Part shown: in pieces, positions 11,542 through 56,384 of the stretch | Layout of the letters: every line of letters begins with the position of its first letter | Position numbering within the stretch: position 1 is the stretch's first letter | Assembly (NCBI GenBank): GCA_030068145.1 | Contig: JAPJBO010000083.1 | Coordinates: 62,001 to 126,000 of the forward strand | DNA length: 64,000 nt | Direction: 5' to 3' | Origin: Diplonema papillatum | Taxonomy: Eukaryota; Euglenozoa; Diplonemea; Diplonemida; Diplonemidae | The notes under the pieces: generated by a model | Database searches by the model: none | The model's input: only the letters and a program-made list of their open reading frames with translations | Told to the model about the DNA's origin: nothing | Position numbers and translations under genes: made by a program

Positions 11542-11714
11542 GTTACGTCGTGGGCGCGGAGCGAGCCGCGGCCCAGTCAAAGATGATTGTTGCACCGATG
11601 GTGGCGCAGCCGGGGGCGTTCTGACTGACGGACGAGACCGCCTGGCAGGCGTGTGTTGACACGTTGTTTCGCGGGCTCAATAGTGACGTATATATATATG
11701 AGACGATGCCAAAA

Positions 11715-13360
11715 GGGGGGGGGGGGGGGGGGGGGGGGGGTTTGGGAAGATGTTTTCTGGCATAGTAAGATACTGGGCAAGTGGGGTATAGGACCTACAC
11801 CCCACCAAAAACTATGTTTGCGAGCCGATTTCGAGCTCGTATGCTCTCGGCGAGCCTTTTTTTGAGCACAAAACGCTGCTTTTTCTGGATTTTGAGGCCC
11901 CAGGTAGGGTAACGCCTGTACAATGACTTTGACGCAGCAACCACCCTCCAAAGGAACTGATGTTGTCGAAACATCGGTTGAAGAATTCGCGAGGCAAGAC
12001 GTGTATACGAAGCACGAGAGGTCATCGGGCACCATGAAGAGACGCTTCAAAGCGACGAGAGCCTTTCTGGAGAAGGTCGCAGGAGCTGACCCGATCGGGT
12101 TTGTTGTATCTCTGTGTACAGAGACTGAGAAGGCCCGAATCTGGCGTGAGTTGTCCGGTTCATGTCCCGAAATGTTCAACAGCATCACGCACGAGCTTAC
12201 ACGGCGCAAGATCGTGCAGGGTTTGGAATGGGTGAGGCAGCGGTACGCGGTAGTGGGCATGAAAGTTGGGGATAAGCTATGGGCCAACAGACAGAAGGGG
12301 GAAGAGGTGGCAAGAGGTGGGCGACCAACGAAGGTGACCCCGGAAATGAGGCAGCAGGCATTCGACAATCACGAGCAGGCATCTACACCAACGTCACGGG
12401 TCATCAAAAAGCTTTGCACCACAGACAAGACGATTGTCGCACAGAACGTTCTCGTACCCTTCCAGCTAGTGTACGAAGGCGATTGTTAATCATGTTCCCT
12501 TCTGCACAGGTGTAACACACATCAGTCCGTCGAGAAAGGTGCTGGAACTGGGCACCACGTAGCCGGCGGTACGTGGTGTACGACACCTTTTGATTCAGGT
12601 CGCTTTCTTCGTACACCAGCTGGAAGGGTATGAGAACGTTCTGTGCGACAACCGTCTCGTCTGCGTGCAAAGCTTTTGATGACTCGTGAGGTTGGTGTCG
12701 ATGTCTGTTCGTGATTGTCGAATGCCTGCTGCCTCATTTCCGGGGTTACCTTTGTTGGTCGCCCACTTCTTTGTCTGTTGGCCCACAGCTTATCCCCAAC
12801 TTTCATGCCCACTACTTCTGCCTCACCCATTCCAAATACTGCTTGATCTTGCGCCGTGTCAGCTCTTGCGTGATGCTGTTGAACATTTCAGGAATGAACC
12901 GGACAACTCACGCCAGATTCGGGCCTTCTCAGTCTCTGTACACAGAGATACAACGAACCCGATCGGGTCAGCTCCTGCGACCTTCTCCAGAAAGGCTCTC
13001 GTCACTTTAAAGCGTCTCTTCATGGTGCCCGATGACCTATCGTACTTCGTATACACGTCTTGCCTCGCGAATTCTTTTCAACCGATGTTTCGACAACACG
13101 CATTCCCGAGTCGTGCATTATAAGAATTTCTTCAGTTCCTTTGGTGGGTGGGTGCGGCGTCAAAGTCATTGTACGTTACGTTACCCTACCCGGGGCCTCA
13201 AATTCCAGAAAAACAGCGTTCTGTGCTCAAAGAAAAACTCGCCGAGAGCATACGAGCTCGAAATCGGCTCGCAAACATGGTTTTTGGGGGGGTGTAGGTC
13301 CTATACCCCACTCGCCCAGTATTTTACTATGCCAGAAAACATCTGCCCAAACCCCCCCCC
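11715..13360. mobile_element. Foldback element with ~750-bp inverted arms and G/C-run ends
   Basis: Left arm (11741-12490) and right arm (about 12595-13351) are imperfect inverted copies around a ~100-bp spacer. Each arm ends in 'tttggg(a/c)agatgttttctgg' followed outward by a homopolymer: 26 G at 11715-11740 on the left, 9 C at 13352-13360 on the right. Both arms include the same coding sequence, intact on the left and shifted on the right. No transposase motif is clear, so this may be non-autonomous. The right-hand C run is also the left border of the next element. Confidence 0.8.
11923..12489 (+). CDS. Foldback-element ORF, helix-turn-helix-like C-terminal part
   Basis: 188-aa frame in the left arm of the foldback element; the right arm carries a diverged minus-strand copy (12522-13056) broken by frameshifts. 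No family recognised. Residues ~135-165 (GRPTKVTPEMRQQAFDNHEQ and following) have the look of a DNA-binding helix-turn-helix with a Gly-Arg-Pro-Thr lead-in, as at transposase N-termini. The repeated arms point to a transposon-borne protein, perhaps truncated. It could equally be a captured host gene fragment. Confidence 0.45.
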   Translation: MTLTQQPPSKGTDVVETSVEEFARQDVYTKHERSSGTMKRRFKATRAFLEKVAGADPIGFVVSLCTETEKARIWRELSGSCPEMFNSITHELTRRKIVQGLEWVRQRYAVVGMKVGDKLWANRQKGEEVARGGRPTKVTPEMRQQAFDNHEQASTPTSRVIKKLCTTDKTIVAQNVLVPFQLVYEGDC

Positions 13361-13682
13361 GGGTCCGCTTCGTTTACTTTTGGAATCGGTTCGCTTCTTG
13401 GTTCGTTTCTAGTTTTGGAGAGTTCGTTTCTAGTTTTGGAAGGTTCGAAACTAGTTTTGGAAGGTTCGTTTCTAGTTTTGGGTGGCTCGTTTACTTTTGG
13501 AACCGGTTCGTTTACTTTTGGAATCGGTTCGTTTCTAGTTTTGGAAGTGCTTCGTTTACTTTTGGAAGGTTCGAAACTAGTTTTAGAATCGGTTCGTGTA
13601 CTTTTGGAAGGTTCGAAACTAGTTTTGGAATCGGTTCGTTTACTTTTGGAAGGTTCGAAACTATTTTCGCTCACTTTTGGCT

Positions 13683-13985
13683 GGAGTTACCGCAGTTTTC
13701 CACAATTTCCATACTTTTCAGATTTTGGCCATTTTTGGCAAATTTTGGCCATTTTTGCCAATTTTTCCAGATTTTGGCCATTTTGGGCAATTTTTCCAAA
13801 TTTTGGCCATTGTTGCCATTTTTTCCAGTTGTTTGCCAAATTTTCCAGATTTCGGCCATTTTTGCCATTTTTCCGATTTTTAGCCATTCTTGCCATTTTT
13901 TCCCAAATTTTCCAGATTTCGGCCATTTTTGGCAGATTTTTCCAACTTTTGGTCATTATTGCTATGGTTTTCCAAATTTTCACAC
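13683..13985. repeat. 'ttttggccatttttgcc' minisatellite
   Basis: T-rich array of ~17-20-bp units alternating 'ttttggccatttttg' and 'aattttccagatttt'. A short related piece lies at the matching place in the second element (21467-21530). Confidence 0.85.
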
Positions 13986-14402
13986 ACACAGAGCTAGCCG
14001 ATGTCTTGTCAAATGAGTGCGGCTGGATTCATATCGTTCGAATAAAACTACGCAGTTCTTTCCATCTTACCTGAGTTTTTCCAATGAATGACTATCGACC
14101 CTTCCTTTCGAACTTCGAACCGAACCATATTTGCTTTGTGTGCGACATAACCCATGACCTGTCTCTAACTTGCGTCGTGATATAGTCGATTGTTGAAAGA
14201 TGAATGCCTAGTGGTTGCGAGCTGTTGAGTGACCCTGGGTCGGAGGAATATTTCTGATGGATGCTAGCTGGTTGTGTACTGGATCGAAACAAGCATTGTA
14301 GCTATTTTAGACTATTAACACTGCATTCTTATAACTAACTAAATTCTTTCTATCCTAGCGGCTATTCACATACACGATAACCGGATGACATAAAATTGTC
14401 CG

Positions 14403-14858
14403 CAAATACACACAGCAGATCAAAGAAAGGGGGGCAAAGGTGGAAAATGCAGATCAAACGGGAGTAGAATGTGCACACGCTTATCCGACTCTTGACTTAC
14501 TATGCCGTGTTCTGAAAGCTGTCGAGGGGCCCCTCCATAGGTTCTCGCATGATTCGTTCGCCTTTGTAACACTATCCGTTTGTAGTACGCTTCGCAATTG
14601 TGTTCTTGCACTCTAGCCGAATGGCGGGTGGCGGATTTCCGCGCTCGGGCGCAAGACACAATTATGCTGCTTTTGCAGTGCAAGCCGAACCCGGTTCGCG
14701 ACTTCGGTTGCGGTAAAGTGTTACGAAGTCTTCGGCTTTCTGATCCGGATACGCGTATGCAACAGATAGTTAGAGGTCACTTGAAGGATACCCGTGTGCA
14801 GCGTTCGAAAGAGTTTGCGTATCTGGCGTCTTTTTTTTGGGGGGAACTCTTTCGACCC
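14403..14858. repeat. Shared element core, copy A
   Basis: About 455 bp matching 21965-22428 with only a handful of differences, in the same orientation. Frames exist on both strands (14598-14879 plus; 14420-14683 minus) and stay open in both copies, but no product is recognised. High identity between copies whose surroundings differ argues for recent spread or gene conversion. Confidence 0.9.
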
Positions 14859-15470
14859 TCTTCGCAGGTTCGTTTCTAGTCTTGGAAGGTTCGCTTCTAG
14901 TTTTGGAAGGTTCGTTTCTAGTTTTGGAAGGTTCGCTTCTAGTTTTGGAATCGGTTCGCTTCTGGTGGTCGGAGTCCGCTTTTTGGACACGATTGCCTTG
15001 GAACTTCGGTCCGATCTCGTTCTTAGTTTTGGAAGGTTCGTTTCTAGTTTTGGAAGGTTCGTTTCTAGTTTTGGAAGGTTCGAAACTAGTTTTGGAAGGT
15101 TCGTTTCTAGTTTTGGAAAGGTTCGTTTCTGGTGGTCGCAGTCGATTTTTGACGCGATTCCCTTGGAATTTCGGCCGATCTCGTTTTAGTTTTGGAAGAG
15201 GTTCGTTTCTAGTTTTGAATCGGTTCGTTTCTAGTTTTGGAAGTGGTTCGTAACTTTTCGAAAAAGTAAACGAACCTCTTCCAAAAGTAAACGAAGTGAT
15301 TCCAAAACTAGTTTCGAACCTTCCAAAAGTAAACGAACCGATTCCAAACTAGTTTCGAACCTTCCAAAAGTAAACGAACCGATTCCAAAACTAGAAACGA
15401 AGTTTCCAAAAAGTAAACGAACCGATTGCAAAACTAGAATTGAACCTTCCAAAAGTAAACGAACCCCACA

Positions 15471-16733
15471 CCCCCCCCTAGGGCTAAGTTGGATGGAAAC
15501 GCCGTTTCTTTTAGTTTTTTCGAAATACGGAAACGGAAACGGAAACGGAAACGTTTCCGTTTCTTTTAAAAGAAACGCCGGAAGGCTCTTCATGCTGAGG
15601 GGTCCATAAGATACCACTTCGCGGGTCCTTCTGTGTGTCCGTCGGGTGTCCGTTTCCAGCCAAATTTTGGCTTTCCTTTCAGAGGGCGGGATCACCTTCT
15701 TCTTTTGATCTACCAGCGGGCACTTCTCTTCCTCCGTCTTCTGGCGGGCTCTCTGACTCTTCAGGGCCCTTCCTGGGCTGTTCTTCGACTTGGCTCGGCC
15801 CCTTCTTGTGTGTCGTCGCGGTCTCGTTTGTGCAGAGCAGTCGCCGAGAAGAGGACGGCAGATTCAAAAAGCCCCACTCACATGAGAACGTGGGTTGGAA
15901 GCAGCAGAAGACGAAGTAGTAGGCACAGAAGAGTGGAATCTGGTGTCAGAAAACATCCACATGTGACGACATTCTGCATCATTAGCTTGTGGTTACCTAT
16001 TTGCTCGTGTCAGATCGCCGACGAAAGAAAGCGGTGAGCACCGCTTCTGCATTGTTGGTGGGTTCTTCCTGCCGTCGTTGTCTATGCTCCGACAACACCG
16101 CCCCTTCCGGTGACGGTTGCCACCCGTCGTCGTATGCAAGGTGCACTGTGGCAAGCGATGTTTAACGCACACGTTACTGCGTGGCCATCGCTTTTCTAGC
16201 GGGTTCAACATTGCCCCGGCATACGTGTCCCCTTCTCACCTCCTGATGCTGATTGCACTCCCTCTTTGTCTTACACCGCCGAAAGACCCCGGTCTTGTAG
16301 CCTGTGGCGCTGAACGATCGTATCTGTATAGCCTATTATTGGAAGCGGATGTGCTTTCCCGATCGTCTTCAGCGCGTTGGCCAACAGCCTCGCATAACAG
16401 AGCATCGTCGCCACAACAGCCATTGGTGTAAAGAGCTGCAGACCTCAAAGTCAGCACAACCGGATGCGTGTGGTTGCGTCTGCTCCACGCGGTCGCAACT
16501 CTTATGCTTCTTTCCTCCCTCTTTTCGGAGCCTCCTTGTCCATGGTTTCCCACTGGATTGCGGGGTCCGCCGTTCGGAATACATTTCCGGTCGGACCTTC
16601 AGCCCGTATACTAGTGGCATACCAGCCGTTTCTTTTGAAAAGAAACGGCGTTTCCATCCACCGCCAAAAAGAAGGAAACGGAAACGGAAACGGAAACGTT
16701 TCCAACGTTTCCATCCTACATAGCCCTAGGGGG
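15471..16733. mobile_element. 1.26-kb inverted-repeat element with GGAAAC arms
   Basis: Terminal inverted repeats: left CCCCCCCCTAGGGCTAAGTT..., right end reading inward CCCCCTAGGGCTATGTAGG, then 'ggatggaaacg' in both. The arms contain (ggaaac)n tracts: 15526-15556 with its own inverted partner on the left, 16675-16710 on the right. The interior (15650-16600) has no recognised gene; a block 'gtcttgtagcctgtggcgc' near 16291-16310 recurs in the neighbouring CACTAGT element near 19426-19444. Non-autonomous. Confidence 0.75.
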
Positions 16734-18681
16734 TCCAATGGCAAGCCAAAAAAACGTGTTTTGCATTTTTTCGAGCTCTGGCGGCAAAGTCGGTTGACTG
16801 CATGAGGTACCACCCCCATACCGGCGCCTTCACACCAAAAAAATACCAAAAACTGCATCCAATAGCCACCTACCGCCCGCATTTGGTCGCAAAATCTCTT
16901 TTTTAGGGTTTTGAAAGTGTGGACAAAGTGTGGACACTTTGCACAATTCTCTCCTTTCAGCCGCCGGCGACAATAAAGTGCGACTCCGAGCTGAGTTTCA
17001 GCCAAGCATACCATCTTGCGGGTCATGTTGCCACTAAAAGATGTATCCGGGTGCATTTTGGACTCCAGAAGCGTTCAGAGACTGTGCAGCCTCACGTAAA
17101 AAAAGGTAGGACCAGCCGGAATGCTGCAACTTTTGTGAGAAACCCAGCTCACATGACCGCAGAGAGCTCTTGAACTGACGCAAACTGTGCAGACCTCGGC
17201 CTGTGACCGTACCATAGTGTCAACAGCAGGGTCAGTCGGTCAAAAACAGGGCATTTTTTGACCACTAAACCTCATGGATTGATGTGTACACAGTGTGTAC
17301 ACGGTCTGTACACGGTCTGTACACGGTGTGTACACGGTGTGTACACGGTACGCAACTTCGTTTTTTCCAGACTTTCGGGGAGGTTAAGAAGGAAATACGA
17401 CCTCGGGGGAGCGCCCAAACACCCCCCTGTGTCATCTTGCCGGACGAGCCGTAGCGGAGTGAACTTAAAACGTGAACAAAAAGCTGAAAGCGACCCCCTG
17501 ACGAGCGAAACGCGACTCAATGTTGCCGACGAGACAGTCGGACCGCGAACGAGCTGAAATTCTGAGCAGACTGGGATTGGTGGACTCTGCGGGCCTGCTC
17601 GGAAGGTTGGAAGCCCAGGCAGACTCGTTTGTATGGCTCCTTGGCCACATTTTATGGTTCCGACAGTCAGAGCACCGCCTTACAGGATACTGTGCGCAGG
17701 CGAAACAGAAAGGCAAACAGCGTGAAGAAGAACTCGAGGAGTTTCGAACGCCGAGAAGCGTTTAGTCGGGTCGAGAGTGGTCCCCAACAATGGTACTGCT
17801 GGCAATGACGCTCAGAGGTGCCGGCCTGGGAGCAGACGGCGGAGAAAGTGGGTTTGTTTGACTTTAAGCTGCTTCCAGACGTCGACTGTGAGCCTGCTCT
17901 CTCGTCTGCGGTTGAGAAATCAGTTGGCACCGTCATGACGTGCGGTGCATGTAGTTTCAACATGCAGACCCATGGAATCCGCACCTGTTTGGCCCAAATG
18001 CTCCAAATCTCCCTGAATAGCCGCCTTCTGCCCTCAACACCCTTCATCCTCGTCGTCTCTCTCTCGCTCTTCATTGCATACGGAATGCAGCAATTAAGAA
18101 CTTTGGAAGCTCGGTCAGCTGCTTGGAAAGATACTTCAGAATACCAATGAATCCGGGCTAGCAAGCCCCAAAGGCAACTTGAGCTACCAATGACTGCCGC
18201 TTGAGGTGTTTTGGCAACTTGGCAACGCTGGAAACAGGCTCGAACCGACGTTCCATCTTCAAAAGTTGACCTCCACAGCAAAACCTGGGTTCGCCGTCGA
18301 AAAGTGCCGCAACTGGGATGTGAGCTCGAAGTCGAAAACACGAGCTTTACGAAGGCAAGACAGGAGATGAAGTGGGAATCACGTAAGTCAATTCTCAGAT
18401 GGGTCCACAAATATGTATTTTTCAGGAGGTGTGCGTCAGTTGCGCCGCAAACGACCGCTGAAGAGTCGAAGGAACGTTTTGGTGATTTATTTGGGGCTGC
18501 GGGAAACACACCAAAACGGCCTGAAATCCATGTTTACGCATTTGCTGAGGGGGAATACCGCACACCCCCCGGTGTTTGATACCCCCCAGCATATTTTCAG
18601 CACCGTTCCGGGCCTCGAAGGGCGCTGTTTACGCCTTTCTTGCCTCCCGTTTGAACACCACGTTTTTTCCTTTGGCCATTG
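16734..18681. other. Spacer between elements; 'gtgtacacg' minisatellite and an unexplained ORF
   Basis: Contains about six copies of an 11-bp 'tgtacacggt(c/g)' unit at 17283-17350. A 280-codon frame on the minus strand (17667-18509) has no domain, signal or bias to support it; low confidence as a gene. C-rich bits at 18560-18595 may be further element debris. Confidence 0.4.
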
Positions 18682-21243
18682 CACGGTGCACTAGTCAAGG
18701 ACTTTTTTGACTTTGACTAGTGGTTTTACTAGTCAAAATTTTGACTAGTAAAATGACTAGTGCCACTAGTAAAAATGACTAGTGCACTAGTAAAAATGAC
18801 TAGTGCACTAGTAAAAATGACTAGTGATTTAGACAAAATCCACCTAACCTGGGCCCAAGTCCTGGGTGTTTTGAGAGTTTTCGAGGGGTTCCACGGCACT
18901 ACCGTGACCACCGGTGCCCAGACACCACAAACCACCTGGGCAACCCCAGTTTTCGCGAGACAGGCCGAGTTGCGAGGGTTTTGGCTGGTTTCTTGGGAAA
19001 GTCCCTGAGCTTGTATGGCTTAGCAAACATAGTGCAAACGACAGTGCTATCCCTGCACGGTGAGGTCAGAGACATGTCGTGACAGGTTTCAGACACTGGA
19101 ATAATGCGGGCTTCCGACCACATTCAAACTCTGGTCCGTAGATTCGGCTTGTCGTTCATGGCGCTCCTATCGCCTTGGCATCGCACCGGACACAGTGCAT
19201 TTACAGTAGTGGGTTCCCTAAAACCCACGATTCTTGCCGAGCTTCCCAACATGAATGTGCAACAGGTGCTGGCTTTGTCCGCCTGTGAACTGTTTGCATG
19301 CAAGGCTTTGTGTTGCGCACATTCCACAAATAGTGTTGTTGCTCACTGCTATGTGCTCCGCTTTCTAGTGTTGGAGGCACTCTCCCATTGCGTGCTTCCT
19401 CTTTCACGCCGCCGCGGAAAACCAGTCTTGTAGCCTGTGGCGCGCGCGTTGTGTGCCAGTCAACACGTCGTGGTGCTTTGTCCAGGCATTTCGAATGCCT
19501 GGAAGTCACGTTTCTTTGTCGTTTCGGGACGTGCTAACGACCATTGAGCCCACCGATCAACTGCTCAAAGCTTTCGTCGGGTGGGACACCAGCAGGTTCT
19601 GGTTTCTACTCGTCGGGTCTACCGCACAGTAAGGTGAATCGCGTAGCCGGTGTACTATTTGTGAAAGCAGCTTCTTTCGCATCTTCGGTTGTTCACAACG
19701 ACAATAAAAGTCACCGCCTCGGATTAGCTTGAATTCACAACGCACTGTCTATCGGGCATTGAGAGCTACTAGTAGTAAGTGCGGAAGAGCATGAGGCAGG
19801 CAAGCTGTATAACGCTCCCAGTAGGCAACAAGTTCCAGAAACTCCCCGTCCTCAGCTGTGGTGCTTGGCACTTGCACTTTCTAGAACTCAATACTCAGCC
19901 CGGTTCCTGTGGGGGAAGAGTCGGGGTGGCCCACCAAAAAAGCGACCACAGTTCTGCATGTTCAGCCGCAAAACACAAACCGACGAGTAATCGTAACTTA
20001 TTCCTGCAGAACTGGCTTTGTTGAATGACGCTCGTGGCAGACATGACCCCCAGCTTTCGTCTATCGCACAGTAAGGAATCGCGTTGGGAACCGCATTCGG
20101 AAAAATATTGGACCGGAACTTCTTTGGACCGGAATCTTTTTGGACTTTTTAGAGTTAAAGTTTTGGGCTTTTGGAGGTTCTGAAAGTTTTGGACTTTTCC
20201 CTGGGGTTTTCACTTTTTGGCGGTATTTTGAAGTCTGACCGAAGCAGCTTTTGCACTCGTTTCATGTTTCCGTTACACCAATGATGGGACCGGCAGATTG
20301 TGCGAACATTCCAAAGCTTCCCGAATTCCGGGCCGCCAACGCGTCCAAATTGGTTCAGGTTACCTTTAGCTGTTCGTCCTTAAAACTCGTGGTTGCACGA
20401 TCATGACTATGGGCGTAGCCTGGGTCGCGTAGACAAGCAGCTCGGGTGAGCATGGCGGGGCGACTCATGAGATTGCCCCCGTCGCCGACCACGTGCCGGA
20501 ACACGACGTCCGGGACCGGCTATACTTGATCAACTCCTTGAACGCCAGCAGCCCGCTGTCGTCGGCATCCACCGTCAAAAACGCGCGTGACCGCCACTCG
20601 GCGGCCAGGACGTCGCCTTCACTCAGCGACGCTCGCTTCACTGCGAGCTCGCCGAGGTCGAGTCCTTCCGCGGGCATGCCGCCGGCCCTGCTCCGTATGG
20701 CCCGGCGACGCCGCGTGCCGACTACGCTCAGCGACTCGCCACCTTCTGCGTCTGGCTAAAGTAGCGACCTCCAAGTTGTAGGGCGCTGTTAACGGACTTG
20801 GGCGCGCCCTTGACTGTAGACACCACATGTATCATATCTTATCGTATTCTTGGATTCTAAACTTCCTTGTGGGCGTGAACCCTACTGTACAATATTTGAA
20901 CCGGAACTTTTTTGGACTTTTGGGGGGTTTGAAAAGTACTTCGACTTTTTCCCGGTCCAACATTATTCCGAACACGGTTGTAAGCGCAACGGTAGGGTAC
21001 AGTTGTGCCGTGGGACCCTCTGAAATCTACAAAATAGCCCAGATTTCGGTTCGGAACAGGTGGATTTCTACTAGGACACTAGTCATTTTGACTAGTGCAC
21101 TAGTCATTTTTACTAGTGCACTAGTCATGTTTACTGGTGTTTTTACTAGTGCACTAGTCATTTTTACTAGTGCACTAGTCATGCTTTTTCACTAGTGAAA
21201 TGACTAGTCAAAACACCTTTTTCACTTTTACTAGTGCACCGTG
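18682..21243. mobile_element. 2.56-kb element with CACTAGT-repeat inverted ends
   Basis: Both ends start CACGGTGCACTAGT reading inward. The left arm (18682-18840) is a run of 'actagtaaaaatgactagtgc' type units and the right arm (21070-21243) its inverted counterpart, followed inward on both sides by 'ggtggatt' (inverted). The interior carries an EF-hand gene fragment (20465-20677), 'ttttggactttt' rich DNA and two partly duplicated segments ('gcacagtaagg' at 19624 and 20067). No transposase. I cannot see a clear target duplication. Confidence 0.7.
20465..20677 (-). pseudogene. EF-hand gene fragment captured in an element
   Basis: In the minus frame a canonical 12-residue calcium-binding loop can be read: DADDSGLLAFKE, with Asp at 1 and 3, Ser at 5, Gly at 6, hydrophobic at 8 and Glu at 12, flanked by helices (RSRAFLTV before, LIKYSRSR after). 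Only one EF-hand is present and the local GC is much higher than the surroundings. Lying between the inverted ends of the element, it looks like a piece of a host calcium-sensor gene carried along. It could also be an exon of an intact gene that spans the element, which I consider less likely. Confidence 0.45.
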
Positions 21244-21535
21244 TGGACCCCCTACCCCCCCCCCCGGGTCGAGCTAATTTATTCCTGGGTGAGCTTTTTT
21301 TCAGGCTTTTTTTCCGACTAATTTGTTCCGGGAAGTGAAAATTTATTCCGGGAAGTGAAAATTTGTTCCGGGAAGTGAAAATTTATTCCGGGAAGTGAAA
21401 ATTTGTTCCGGGAAGTGAAAATTTATTCCGGGAAGTGAAAATTTGTTCCGGAAACTGAAAATTTGGGGTTTGCCAAATTTTCCAGATTTTCACCATTTGT
21501 GTGTGATTTTTACAATTTTTGTGTAAGGTACGCAT

Positions 21536-21948
21536 ACCCGAACCCCCCCCGCATACCCGAACCCGCATACCCAAACCCGCAAACCCGAACCCGCAACCCG
21601 CGTACCCTAACCCCGCAAACCCTAACCCGCAAACCCCGCAAACCCGCATACCCAAACCCGCATACCCTAACCCGCAAACCCGCATACCCTAACCTCGCAA
21701 ACCCGCATACCCGAACCCGCAAACCCGCGTACCCTAACCCCGCAAACCCTAACCCGCAAACCCGCGTACCCTAACCCCGCAAACCCGCATACCCAAACCC
21801 GCATACCCAAACCCGCAAACCCGCATACCCTAACCTCGCAAACCCGCATACCCGAACCCCGCAACCCCGCGTACCCTAACCCCGCAAACCCCGCATACCC
21901 TAACCCGCAAACCCCGCAAACCCTAACCCGCAAACCCCGCTTACCCGC
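21536..21948. repeat. Telomere-like C/A-rich array
   Basis: Degenerate array of 'accctaacccgcaaacccgc' and 'atacccgaacccgc' units. The 'ccctaaccc' part resembles telomere repeats, but it is interspersed with 'gcaaaccc' and 'gcataccc' and lies inside the mobile element, so it is a minisatellite rather than a chromosome end. Confidence 0.85.
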
Positions 21949-21964
21949 ATGCGATAACGTTTTT

Positions 21965-22428
21965 CAAATACACACAGCAGATCAAAGAAAGGGGGGAAAG
22001 GTGGAAAATGCAGATCAAACGGGAGTAGAATGTGCACACTCGCTTATCCGACTCTTGACTTACTATGCCGTGTTCTGAAAGCTGTCGAGGGGCCCCTCCA
22101 TAGGTTCTCGCATGATTCGTTCGCCTATGTAACACTATCCGTTTGTAGTACGCTTCGCAATTGTGTTCTTGCACTCTAGCCGAATGGCGGGTGGCGGATT
22201 TCCGCGCTCGGGCGCAAGACACAATTATGCTGCTTTTGCAGTGCAAGCCGAACCCGGTTCGCGACTTCGGTTGCGGTAAAGTGTTACAAAGTCTTCGGCT
22301 TTCAGATCCGGATACGCGTATGCAACAGATAGTTAGAGGTCACTTGAAGGATACCCGTGTGCAGCGTTCGAAAGAGTTTGCGTATCTGGAGTCTTTTTTT
22401 TTTTTCGGGGGGTGCCCTTTTGACCCTA
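21965..22428. repeat. Shared element core, copy B
   Basis: Near-identical to 14403-14858. Differences include one-base indels in the G and T runs and a few substitutions. The same frames are open here (22161-22448 plus; 21941-22246 minus). Confidence 0.9.
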
Positions 22429-23463
22429 TGTATTTTATTATTTTTTGAGAAGAGAGTTTACGACAGCCTCGAGGATATTCGTCATTTCCTGCGTTCGTCC
22501 AGTGTAATTGTCGTCCAAGTTACTGACCGTGGGAAGGGGTTCCAAGAAGTCTGTCTGAGTGCGCGATGCAGTTTACCGATAGCCACCGCGTGCCTTCTGT
22601 GCCAGGGGTCGGATACGTTTACTTGCTGACCGGTGCTAACTTTGTAGAAGGCCCACCTATCAGCCTGAGTTCAGCTCCACAAGGTTCGTTTCGTTAAGGC
22701 AACTCATGATCACTTCGGTGTGAGGGATTAGTCCTGTTAGAAACTACTTGTGGGCGCCTGCTCCGTTGCGTGGTCTTCTCTCCGTACAGTGTTCCACATC
22801 TGGAAGGTCCTTGCGTTCAGTTCGCGCTTCCTGTGGGCACAAAGACAGTCGGTGACTTCAGGAAGGAATCAGCCATTCTTGCGTGATGTAATGTGGAGTG
22901 CAGATTCCGTTTGTTGCCACCTTGGGTTGTCAGCCCAGTCCTCCCCAGTTCTAGGTTCGGTCCGGGTCCCGTGAAATGAGGAGAAATTTGTTCCGAAACT
23001 GAAAATTTGTTCCGGGAAGTGAAAATTTGTTCCGGAACTGAAAATTTGTTCCGGGAAGCGAAAATTTGTTCCGGGGAGTGAAAATTTGTTCCGGGGTGAG
23101 TTTTTTTTCTGGGAGGCTCACTGATCGTGTCAGCCATTTTTAGCCCAGAAATGAAAAAAAACTCACCCAGGAACAAATTAGTCAGAAAAAAAGCCCACCC
23201 CGGAACAAATTTTCAGTTCCCGGAACAAATTAGTCAGAAAAAAAGCCCTCCCCGGAACAAATTTTCACTTCCCGGAACAAATTTTCGCTTCCCGGAACAA
23301 ATTTTCACCTCCCGGAACAAATTTTCACCTCCCGGAATAAAAAAGTCGGAAAAAAAGTCGGGAAAAAAGCCACCCCGGAATAAATTAGCCCCACACCCCC
23401 CCCCCCCCCCCCTTTTGGCATCGTAGACCATATAGTATTCAATGAATAGATAGTCCAAAAAAA

Positions 23464-55184: not shown

Positions 55185-55688
55185 CTTGCTCAATTTCCCT
55201 TTCTCCCCCTCTCTTCTTCTTTTTGAAAGGCAACGCTTCCTTTTCTGGGCTGCTGACGTCCCTTTCTCGAGCCTTTCTCTAGCGGCGGGTCCGCGAAGAC
55301 ACAGAAAACGCTGGTTAATGCGCTGTTTCCTTTGCACACTGGAATCTACGTGTGATTCGTGTGTGCTTCTTTTGTCACGTTTATCCGCGGTTGTCCTTTC
55401 TACCAGAGGGGCTTGTGTGTATGGTGTGTGTGTGTGTTTATGTATGCCTTTCGGTGTGTATGTGCGAATTAGCTTCAAACATATTCGAGACAGACCAGAG
55501 TTCCGCAACCTCGTGCGAGGTGCCTATGGGCATACCGCAAGCTACGAGTGCAGGCTGGTCTCTGAACCAAATGTGAATTACCTGCCATGGTGTCTTCGTC
55601 AAAGGGCAAATGGTCCACGGCTTCGCAAAAGGGACAACACCAACCCAACTGCTGGCAGGGTAGATATTCACCCGAGAACCTCGAACGC
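55185..55688. other. Likely PUF promoter and 5' leader region
   Basis: 504 bases between the PUF ATG and the 16-bp satellite. Contains a short (tg)n run at 55421-55438 and a pyrimidine-rich stretch next to the ATG. No TATA-like or other motif stands out. Confidence 0.4.
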
Positions 55689-56384
55689 ACCTTCGGTATG
55701 TGGCACCTTCGGTATGTGGCACCTTCGGTATGTGGCACCTTCGGTATGTGGCACCTTCGGTATGTGGCACCTTCGGTATGTGGCACCTTCGGTATGTGGC
55801 ACCTTCGGTATGTGGCACCTTCGGTATGTGGCACCTTCGGTATGTGGCACCTTCGGTATGTGGCACCTTCGGTATGTGGCACCTTCGGTATGTGGCACCT
55901 TCGGTATGTGGCACCTTCGGTATGTGGCACCTTCGGTATGTGGCACCTTCGGTATGTGGCACCTTCGGTATGTGGCACCTTCGGTATGTGGCACCTTCGG
56001 TATGTGGCACCTTCGGTATGTGGCACCTTCGGTATGTGGCACCTTCGGTATGTGGCACCTTCGGTATGTGGCACCTTCGGTATGTGGCACCTTCGGTATG
56101 TGGCACCTTCGGTATGTGGCACCTTCGGTATGTGGCACCTTCGGTATGTGGCACCTTCGGTATGTGGCACCTTCGGTATGTGGCACCTTCGGTATGTGGC
56201 ACCTTCGGTATGTGGCACCTTCGGTATGTGGCACCTTCGGTATGTGGCACCTTCGGTATGTGGCACCTTCGGTATGTGGCACCTTCGGTATGTGGCACCT
56301 TCGGTATGTGGCACCTTCGGTATGTGGCACCTTCGGTATGTGGCACCTTCGGTATGTGGCACCTTCGGTATGTGGCACCTTCGG
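55689..56384. repeat. Perfect 16-bp tandem satellite, 43.5 copies
   Basis: Unit accttcggtatgtggc repeated 43 times plus 8 bases, without a visible substitution. Because 16 is not a multiple of 3 and the unit lacks stops in any register, all six reading frames stay open through the array. The repeat peptides are therefore a by-product, not evidence of a protein. Lies ~500 bp upstream of the PUF start codon. Confidence 0.97.

Follow-up and report, generated by a model that had tools for sequence, protein, structure and literature searches.

Foldback elements with a common core in the cytosine runs of Diplonema papillatum

The question raised by this stretch of Diplonema papillatum DNA (the window, 64,000 nucleotides in all) is how two elements, A and B, came to lie between runs of cytosine with the same outer ends and nearly the same inner segment, or core, and with arms that are unrelated in sequence. 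We consider it quite probable, taking the parts of the explanation jointly, that these are cut-and-paste foldback transposons of the MULE kind that insert into C-runs, that they have their own transposases, and that the core has been exchanged between lineages.

Two elements and their flanking C-runs

11703..12056, minus strand: element-free related site, a paralogue of the A left flank, 26 C, then TTTTGGCATCGT
13352..13360, plus strand: left flanking C-run of A, 9 C, target remnant or duplicate
13361..15470, plus strand: element A, non-autonomous foldback element, internally deleted, GGGTC...CCCCACA; full-length relative at G000:C7:389800-396929
13400..13667, plus strand: A left arm, tandem repeats of about 21 bp, GGTTCGTTTCTAGTTTTGGAA type
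13715..13980, plus strand: A inner T-rich minisatellite, position as in the full-length element
14403..14840, plus strand: core in A, common to B, C and further families
14859..15465, plus strand: A right arm, tandem repeats, internally inverted
15471..15478, plus strand: right flanking C-run of A, 8 C
15480..16734, no strand assigned: distinct inverted-repeat element built of GGAAAC repeats, with ends GGGCTAAGTTGGATGG / GGGCTATGTAGGATGG and approximate borders
18682..21250, minus strand: D-type foldback element, ACTAGTGCACTAGTCATTTTT arms, without core, borders approximate
21255..21265, plus strand: left flanking C-run of B, 11 C
21266..23395, plus strand: element B, non-autonomous foldback element, GGGTC...CCCCACA; long relative at G000:C441
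21320..21465, plus strand: B left arm, 20-bp tandem repeats (AATTTGTTCCGGGAAGTGAA)
21548..21946, plus strand: B telomere-like minisatellite, AACCCCGCATACCCTAACCCGCA type
21965..22401, plus strand: core in B
22984..23370, plus strand: B right arm, tandem repeats, internally inverted
23396..23412, plus strand: right flanking C-run of B, 17 C, then TTTTGGCATCGT

The initial annotation had described A and B as bounded by GGGTC and CCCCACA and by C-runs on both sides, which holds (9 and 8 C around A, 11 and 17 C around B), as do its borders for A and its right border for B; the left border of B, given as 21267, lies one base earlier. The ends are constant only as far as these two motifs extend, everything inward of them being family-specific. 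The arms consist of tandem repeats, which the two ends of each element carry in opposite orientation (the longest inverted pairs measure 71 nt, with 94% complementarity, and 123 nt, with 90%), and outside the core the BLAST matches between A and B are confined to 53-bp stretches of T-rich spacer, in keeping with the original description of the arms as unrelated and internally inverted. This structure is observed directly; most likely the window copies are deletion derivatives that would have moved in trans. The D-type element reads GGGTCCACACGGTGCAC inward from its end at 21250, without a C-run on that strand, and its other end is degenerate. The window suggests how a pile of elements can gather at a single C-run.

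A and B belong to a family dispersed through the 271-Mb genome, where a run of 7 C or more stands directly before 70 of the 76 exact left ends of A and 116 of the 126 of B, leaving 16 of 202 without such a run. At the other end, all 25 right ends readable by eye among 30 loci found by their core (the window copy included) abut at least 7 C and none abuts a G-run, the background of C-runs being about 0.05% of window positions. The proposal of a mobile family in C-runs is supported. Among the matches listed, C-run+GGGTC and CCCCACA+C-run sites within 10 kb of each other form 34 pairs in the right order, compared with 4 in which the order is wrong and 3 whose members are on different strands; the sample took in the first-listed places, 100 for left ends and 56 for right ends, from contigs no further than C201, and the left-end lists required at least 8 C. 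In the copies counted the orientation is fixed, the C lying on the strand that reads GGGTC...CCCCACA, a polarity that would not be expected if the transposase handled its two ends in the same way.

The DNA examined contains a related empty site for 17 of 72 distinct junctions, and these sites show insertion into a plain C-run, as had been suggested to explain the flanks. The clearest is that of a B copy at C7:703103, flanked by 17 and 19 C, compared with 12 and 11 C at the empty loci L112 and L113; these two may be one site, and uncollapsed haplotypes may inflate the counts. Such a difference is more than a simple duplication of 8-11 bp would give. Homopolymer lengths in an assembly are unreliable. 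Flanking runs span 8-29 C on the left and 6-24 C on the right (the script required at least 6 C) and are compatible with a duplication of about 8 C, one that is not provable inside a homopolymer, as a target-site duplication is not visible where the flanks are all C. One copy of a core-bearing family, J, read by eye, has TTTTTTAATA on both sides.

Minisatellites recombine readily, and recombination that joined or duplicated segments at C-run or minisatellite hotspots, or the collapse of repeats by the assembly at homopolymers, might be offered in place of transposition. Head-to-tail tandem copies with a common C-run (for example L025 and L049) and three B left ends spaced 2240 bp apart on contig C509 would fit such a scenario, which we nevertheless regard as highly improbable given the precise ends at different flanks, the related empty sites, the intact transposase-like open reading frames described below, and identical copies at different loci. 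A copies on contigs C7 and C47 are identical over their right 1490 bp and have different flanks, which points to recent movement.

Transposase-like genes and class membership

The initial annotation had left the route of movement open, and a likely factor acting in trans has now come to light in the intact transposase-like ORFs of long A and B copies. Full-length A copies (7.1 kb) contain an intact ORF of 1289 aa, and one B copy (C441, of whose arms only the left lies within the DNA examined) contains an intact ORF of 1104 aa between the B left end and the core, the two proteins being 56% identical overall. A 450-aa piece of the A protein, the only query used, has 37 matches in the genome, five of them at 100% in frames of 1212-1289 aa; one divergent match (C441) was read in its element, and for families C-F this search returned no transposase.

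When a 261-aa piece was compared with Pfam, the MULE domain (PF10551) was the sole family at E values up to 1, matched over the whole profile at E 9.7e-5 and 23.2 bits for B and at E 0.0055 and 17.5 bits for A, both below the cut-off of 27.6 bits; two pieces of a degraded relative did not match the MULE domain in Pfam. The motifs DGT, TDN and CLYH in the A and B proteins, and DGT, SDN and CLFH in the degraded relative, are presumably catalytic. The C-terminal part of the ORFs, by eye a possible cysteine protease, matches nothing in Pfam up to an E value of 5, and a profile search of PDB sequences returned a coat protein alone at E 0.31, which was rejected. Both element ends have terminal inverted repeats, and the long inverted tandem-repeat arms, together with the existence of large and small copies, are those of foldback elements. 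Judged from sequence, the likeliest identity of A and B is that of foldback transposons of Mutator type, an assignment made because the MULE domain is the best Pfam match of their proteins, albeit one below the cut-off.

Other classes were considered. Helitrons lack terminal inverted repeats, encode a Rep/helicase protein and insert between A and T, whereas the present elements have such repeats and C-run flanks, and neither ORF has a Rep/helicase match in Pfam at E up to 1. Retroelements of SINE or LINE type, whose reverse-transcribed copies have a 3' tail and lack terminal inverted repeats, are ruled out by the inverted repeats at both ends. The P superfamily (Galileo type) was set aside as the Pfam scans, in which MULE was the best DNA-transposase match, picked up none of the P-element families with E values of 1 or less. 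A long B copy at C4:267145 and a long C copy on contig C89 were rejected as autonomous elements; their long ORFs are YR/RT-like and RT-like by eye, respectively, the only RT-like ORFs seen, and are therefore read as nested insertions.

The A and B families each comprise long copies with a transposase-like gene of their own and shorter copies without it, short copies such as those in the window probably being moved in trans. The tandem-repeat arms are most likely arrays of transposase binding sites, in which case they would diverge together with the transposase; that both A and B have long copies holding an intact transposase-like ORF makes the arms look lineage-specific. Insertion into a C-run would likely duplicate about 8 C on each side.

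A core found between unrelated arms

A common core of about 455 bp had been reported, and in the window 431 of 435 ungapped positions are indeed identical between A and B (96.6% over 464 by BLAST when gaps and the T-run are included). Words resembling Box A and Box B were noticed in it by eye. The A and B cores are 98.2-99.1% identical at ungapped positions, whereas synonymous sites of the two transposases are saturated (pS 0.75). This disparity suggests that the core was exchanged, rarely, between lineages already separate; it is thus the core, rather than the arms, that appears to have moved, contrary to the earlier notion of interchangeable arms. The exchange, which the sequences make probable, may at a guess have proceeded by gene conversion or by template switching in post-excision repair.

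It is also conceivable, though rather unlikely, that the core was never exchanged and is an ancient inner part of all these transposons that selection has held nearly constant, as a structured RNA or as a site for replication or transposase binding, with drift meanwhile saturating the synonymous sites and the arms. The core does lie downstream of the transposase gene in the long copies of both A and B, and long blocks of it persist in the J class, with 70 of 75 consecutive positions invariant over 11 aligned rows; yet an identity of 98-99% would demand near-ultraconservation, and J cores are only 78-84% identical to that of A. Moreover, arm family C has the core in reverse orientation (as do 5 of 28 core-holding end pairs among the matches listed), the spacer beside it is likewise 85-90% alike in B and C, and versions truncated to positions 1-245 persist in three loci. 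As to structure, folding 11 cores jointly yielded 109 pairs, two of them with compensatory change. In the scoring of folds across core classes, broken pairs fell below permutation on the plus strand (P 0.009 and 0.024; P 0.11 and 0.16 on the minus strand), which favours an ancient core, but pairs kept through change showed no excess over permutation (P 0.24-0.49, four tests) and the RNA folds no better than shuffles (z -0.8 on the plus strand, -1.4 on the minus strand and 0.3 for J). A structured RNA was therefore set aside, left as a weak hint.

Could the core itself be mobile or gene-like, for instance a Pol III-type transcript ending in a T-run, inserted independently into many families? 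A core 29-mer has 398 exact copies in the genome (none for the reversed pattern), the core also occurs with arms other than those of A and B, and in several families its left boundary CAAATACACACAGC recurs and a T-run lies near the right one. Among 98 listed copies, 30 lie in an end pair, 29 near a single listed end and 39 near neither. Some of the last group are ordinary, however, as the left-end lists required at least 8 C (at L094 the core and an exact left end of B are roughly 1.2 kb apart), and 11 of 12 other loci read away from listed ends adjoin the same telomere-like array on the left of the core, and so offer few contexts. Rfam has no match within the core (its 13 matches at E up to 0.5 between 13300 and 23500 fall without exception in hairpin arms and do not reach the gathering scores, and the one weak match at L112 is outside the core), and the window contains no tRNA. 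We give an independently mobile core little credence.

Equally unlikely, in our estimation, is a guild in which foldback families, though unrelated in their arms, do more than inherit the core and cooperate through it as an exchangeable module doing a common job, perhaps marking DNA for a common factor that reads C-runs strand-specifically by way of an i-motif or G-quadruplex. The exchange that we prefer would have been rare: in the comparison, which covered 33 rows of A, 15 of B (13 of them distinct) and 2 of C, each core groups with the family of its arms. For A the test is weak, as 29 of the 33 rows were chosen by resemblance to the A core, whereas those of B and C had been reached by way of the ends or the transposase.

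Comparison with known systems

No transposon class with such parts had been known to the initial annotation, and yet each part has a precedent in MuTAnT, Tm1 or Galileo; for poly-C targeting with strand polarity, none was found in the literature searched for homopolymer or poly-C targets. If the present reading is true, the choice of a target by a single-base homopolymer and its strand would be unusual for a MULE-type element, and it can be put to the test, since transposase-like ORFs are intact, some copies are identical and empty sites exist. The modular exchange is also of interest, an inner segment being nearly identical while the surrounding genes are saturated; neither internal sequence nor arms, taken by themselves, would be a safe basis for classifying such transposons.

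Drosophila FB/NOF and Arabidopsis FARE have long inverted arms of short tandem repeats and occur as large and small copies, a likeness to A and B in architecture, and we know of no C-run target for either. Microsatellite-associated MITEs are reportedly the subject of a study in pineapple.

Tm1 of Meloidogyne is a Mutator/Foldback element with members that have or lack a MULE-like transposase, and it resembles A and B in inverted repeats built of tandem units (about 14 bp in Tm1) and in asymmetric end motifs, which in Tm1 are 7 bp long and occupy the outermost positions, beyond the inverted repeat on either side; it differs in having 8-10 bp duplications in 45 of 53 cases and no clear target preference (PMC3169594), where A and B sit in C-runs. 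Galileo of Drosophila mojavensis, with foldback-like inverted repeats that contain tandem repeats, likewise combines one central region (98% alike where given) with the inverted repeats of three subfamilies; it belongs to the P superfamily, however, and its ends are still alignable at 77% (PMC3573991), whereas A and B are most likely of MULE type, their arms cannot be aligned and their transposases are 56% identical overall. The report on MuTAnT and AutoMuTAnT, which also names Arabidopsis FARE, describes Medicago MULEs with short copies and one putative autonomous copy inside a simple repeat, with empty sites that have fewer repeat units on average and a duplication that is masked save for exceptions of 9 nt (PMC4486113). 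These, too, are foldback elements of MULE type, with inverted-repeat tips of GGGG/CCCC; their target is (TA)n (PMC4486113), which has no strand, whereas that of A and B is mononucleotide C in a fixed orientation, and the A/B family further differs from MuTAnT, as there described, in its tandem minisatellite arms and in its several unrelated families with one core in common.

Elements A and B and their relatives in the assembly

The initial annotation described two elements with common tips, C-run flanks, a shared core and inverted arms, and all of these are borne out in the window:

Element A, 13361-15470: GGGTC left tip, CCCCACA right tip, C-runs outside, inverted tandem-repeat arms and core
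Element B, 21266-23395: GGGTC left tip, CCCCACA right tip, C-runs outside, inverted tandem-repeat arms and core

The core, about 437 bp long, is identical between A and B at 431 of 435 ungapped positions (96.6% over 464 by BLAST, gaps counted), and outside it the two have little in common. Directly right of A's C-run is an inverted-repeat element (15480-16734) with GGAAAC hexamer arrays, matching ends and, by eye, a TA or CTAG-like junction. A D-type foldback element with ACTAGTGCACTAGTCATTTTT arms, one degenerate end and no core occupies 18682-21250; elsewhere, one D left end (locus L072) was seen to have both a C-run and GGGTC. The window also holds, at 55687-56384, a perfect tandem array of a 16-bp unit (GCACCTTCGGTATGTG; 43.6 copies, 100% matches).

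In the assembly (271 Mb, 2910 contigs; the window is G000:C83:62001-126000), the CCCCCCCNGGGTC pattern had 355 matches against 115 for its reversed control, and the CCCCACACCCCCCC pattern 221 against 137. The search for tip pairs that the initial annotation had proposed was rewarded. With 100 left and 56 right sites listed on contigs up to C201, 34 pairs of a left and a right tip no more than 10 kb apart were correctly ordered; 4 had the wrong order, and 3 had their tips on different strands. These 34 are 0.3-7.1 kb long, 16 of them 2.07-2.30 kb, and 28 contain an exact core 29-mer, oriented as in the window in 23 and reversed in 5; the six without it include a core with an insertion (C7:703103), an interrupted core (C89) and a 0.3-kb copy without any core (C61).

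Behind the common tips GGGTC and CCCCACA, the terminal inverted repeat is specific to the arm family. Another 20 left ends were read, and 17 have recognisable arms (A 4, B 5, C 4, D 1, E 1, F 2) while three do not; families A, B and C accounted for 6 of the first 8 left ends (2 other) and 22 of 30 right ends (8 other).

C-runs as insertion sites

Left ends were counted without requiring C's, to avoid bias. Genome-wide, at least 7 C precede 70 of 76 exact A left ends and 116 of 126 exact B left ends, leaving 16 that lack them. Right ends were legible by eye at 25 of 30 core-found loci, and all 25 (14 exact, 11 with small tip changes; one the window's own copy) adjoin a same-strand run of 7 C or more. 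For background, 7 C start at 35 of the 64,000 window positions. The proposed residence in homopolymeric C holds beyond the window, and the orientation of insertion relative to the C strand is fixed in the copies counted.

A related flank copy with a C-run but no element was found for 17 of 72 distinct junctions in the DNA examined, the flank being the end of another element at two of the 17 (L025, L049). The B element at C7:703103 shows this most clearly: its left flank reads ...TTTGACCGA then 17 C, and its right 19 C then GGAAATGGAGG. The matching empty site, seen at L112 and L113 (possibly two haplotypes of a single site), reads TTTTGACCGA, 12 or 11 C, GGAAATGGAGG; once the element's flanks are joined, they align with it at 98.6% over 222 bp.

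A's left flank recurs within the window (94% over the last 90 bp) at 11703-12056 on the minus strand, followed by 26 C and then TTTTGGCATCGT; these same 12 bases also stand directly after B's right C-run, at 23413, beyond which the right flanks are unalignable. This arrangement suggests that A's left flank and B's right flank may once have bordered a single C-run, into which the whole of 13361-23395, including the two other inverted-repeat elements, would have piled. Tandem copies joined through one C-run were found at further loci. On C509 (158004, 160244 and 162484), three B left ends, each preceded by a C-run, follow head to tail at a spacing of exactly 2240 bp, an array produced by insertion or unequal exchange.

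The transposase-like protein and the history of the core

A 7.1-kb A copy at C7 contains an intact 1289-aa ORF between left arm and core. A 450-aa piece of this protein has 37 matches in the genome: five are identical and lie in frames of 1212-1289 aa, a further one reaches 95% (C170) and another is split into pieces at 100% and 96% (C59), the remainder being partial or less alike; in the window, no match to the protein exceeds chance. One of the remainder, at 65% over the whole 450-aa piece, lies in a long B copy at C441, which runs from C-run and B left end through an intact 1104-aa ORF to core and B spacer, the sequence examined stopping before the right end. With all columns counted, the two proteins are 56% identical. 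The central piece of both returned MULE, the Mutator-type transposase family, as the only Pfam family (E 9.7e-5 for B, 0.0055 for A), the match spanning the whole profile yet falling below the curated cut-off in both; there is also a hint of a C2H2 finger. Judged from sequence, MULE membership is probable at this sub-threshold domain score, and A and B are most likely foldback transposons of the Mutator type. At C7 and C47 the right 1490 bp of the A copies match exactly while their flanks differ, a sign of recent movement. The elements are real and mobile in design, and assembly artefact is an unlikely source of them.

Some copies house other elements. Nested in a B copy at C4:267145-274089 (L005, L070, L042) is an element that by eye looks DIRS-like, its ORFs resembling tyrosine recombinase, RT and RNase H. 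A C copy at C89 (L067, L071) includes an RT-like ORF of 1243 aa, by eye of LINE type, and then only core positions 1-196.

The A and B transposases have diverged to saturation at synonymous sites (pS 0.75; dN 0.37), whereas the two long copies share the same base at 425 of 433 ungapped core positions. Neutral vertical descent of the core does not fit this disparity. Family C has the core reversed relative to the tips, together with about 550 adjoining bp that are 85-90% like B's. The compared cores (33 A, 15 B rows of which 13 are distinct, and 2 C; partial cores, window duplicates and an 80% copy removed) sort by arm family on a few diagnostic positions, a weak test for A, where 29 of 33 rows came from an A-core search. 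Our reading is that core exchange between families is rare and that each new combination then multiplies. Tests for RNA structure in the core gave weak results.

Core copies lacking the tips and C-runs were, in the initial annotation, what would speak against its reading. The tip pairs mostly enclose the core; twelve core loci were read away from the listed ends. At least one of these (L094) is probably an ordinary B copy, which the first end search missed because it required 8 C. A telomere-like minisatellite lies left of the core at 11 of the 12; to its right, GGGGTGGAAAG-type repeats follow at four loci and B/C-like spacer at two, three loci (five copies) have the core cut at 245 and then other sequence, and three others differ. 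One G-type copy also adjoins a C-run, with different tips. On C40 (L117, L104, L118), GGTGGAAAGTACTTTTCGGGG arms of family G flank the core, the right end at a long C-run and the left after CCCCCC, and the tips differ from GGGTC/CCCCACA. A second class of core, with 78-84% similarity to the first, occurs in family J with ATATTTATCGGAAAC arms; the J copy at about 735-2420 of L116 (C13, reverse strand), with its own core class, lies outside any C-run and has a possible 10-bp duplication, TTTTTTAATA.

Comparison with known systems

The initial annotation knew of no transposon class with constant ends and core but swapped arms. In the literature searched, neither a homopolymer target with strand polarity nor a core common to arm families whose transposases are synonymously saturated was found. 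Taken singly, the main features each have a precedent. MuTAnT is a MULE of foldback build that sits in (TA)n (PMC4486113), Tm1 combines tandem-repeat TIRs with asymmetric tips (PMC3169594), and in Galileo a single central region occurs with ends from three subfamilies (PMC3573991).
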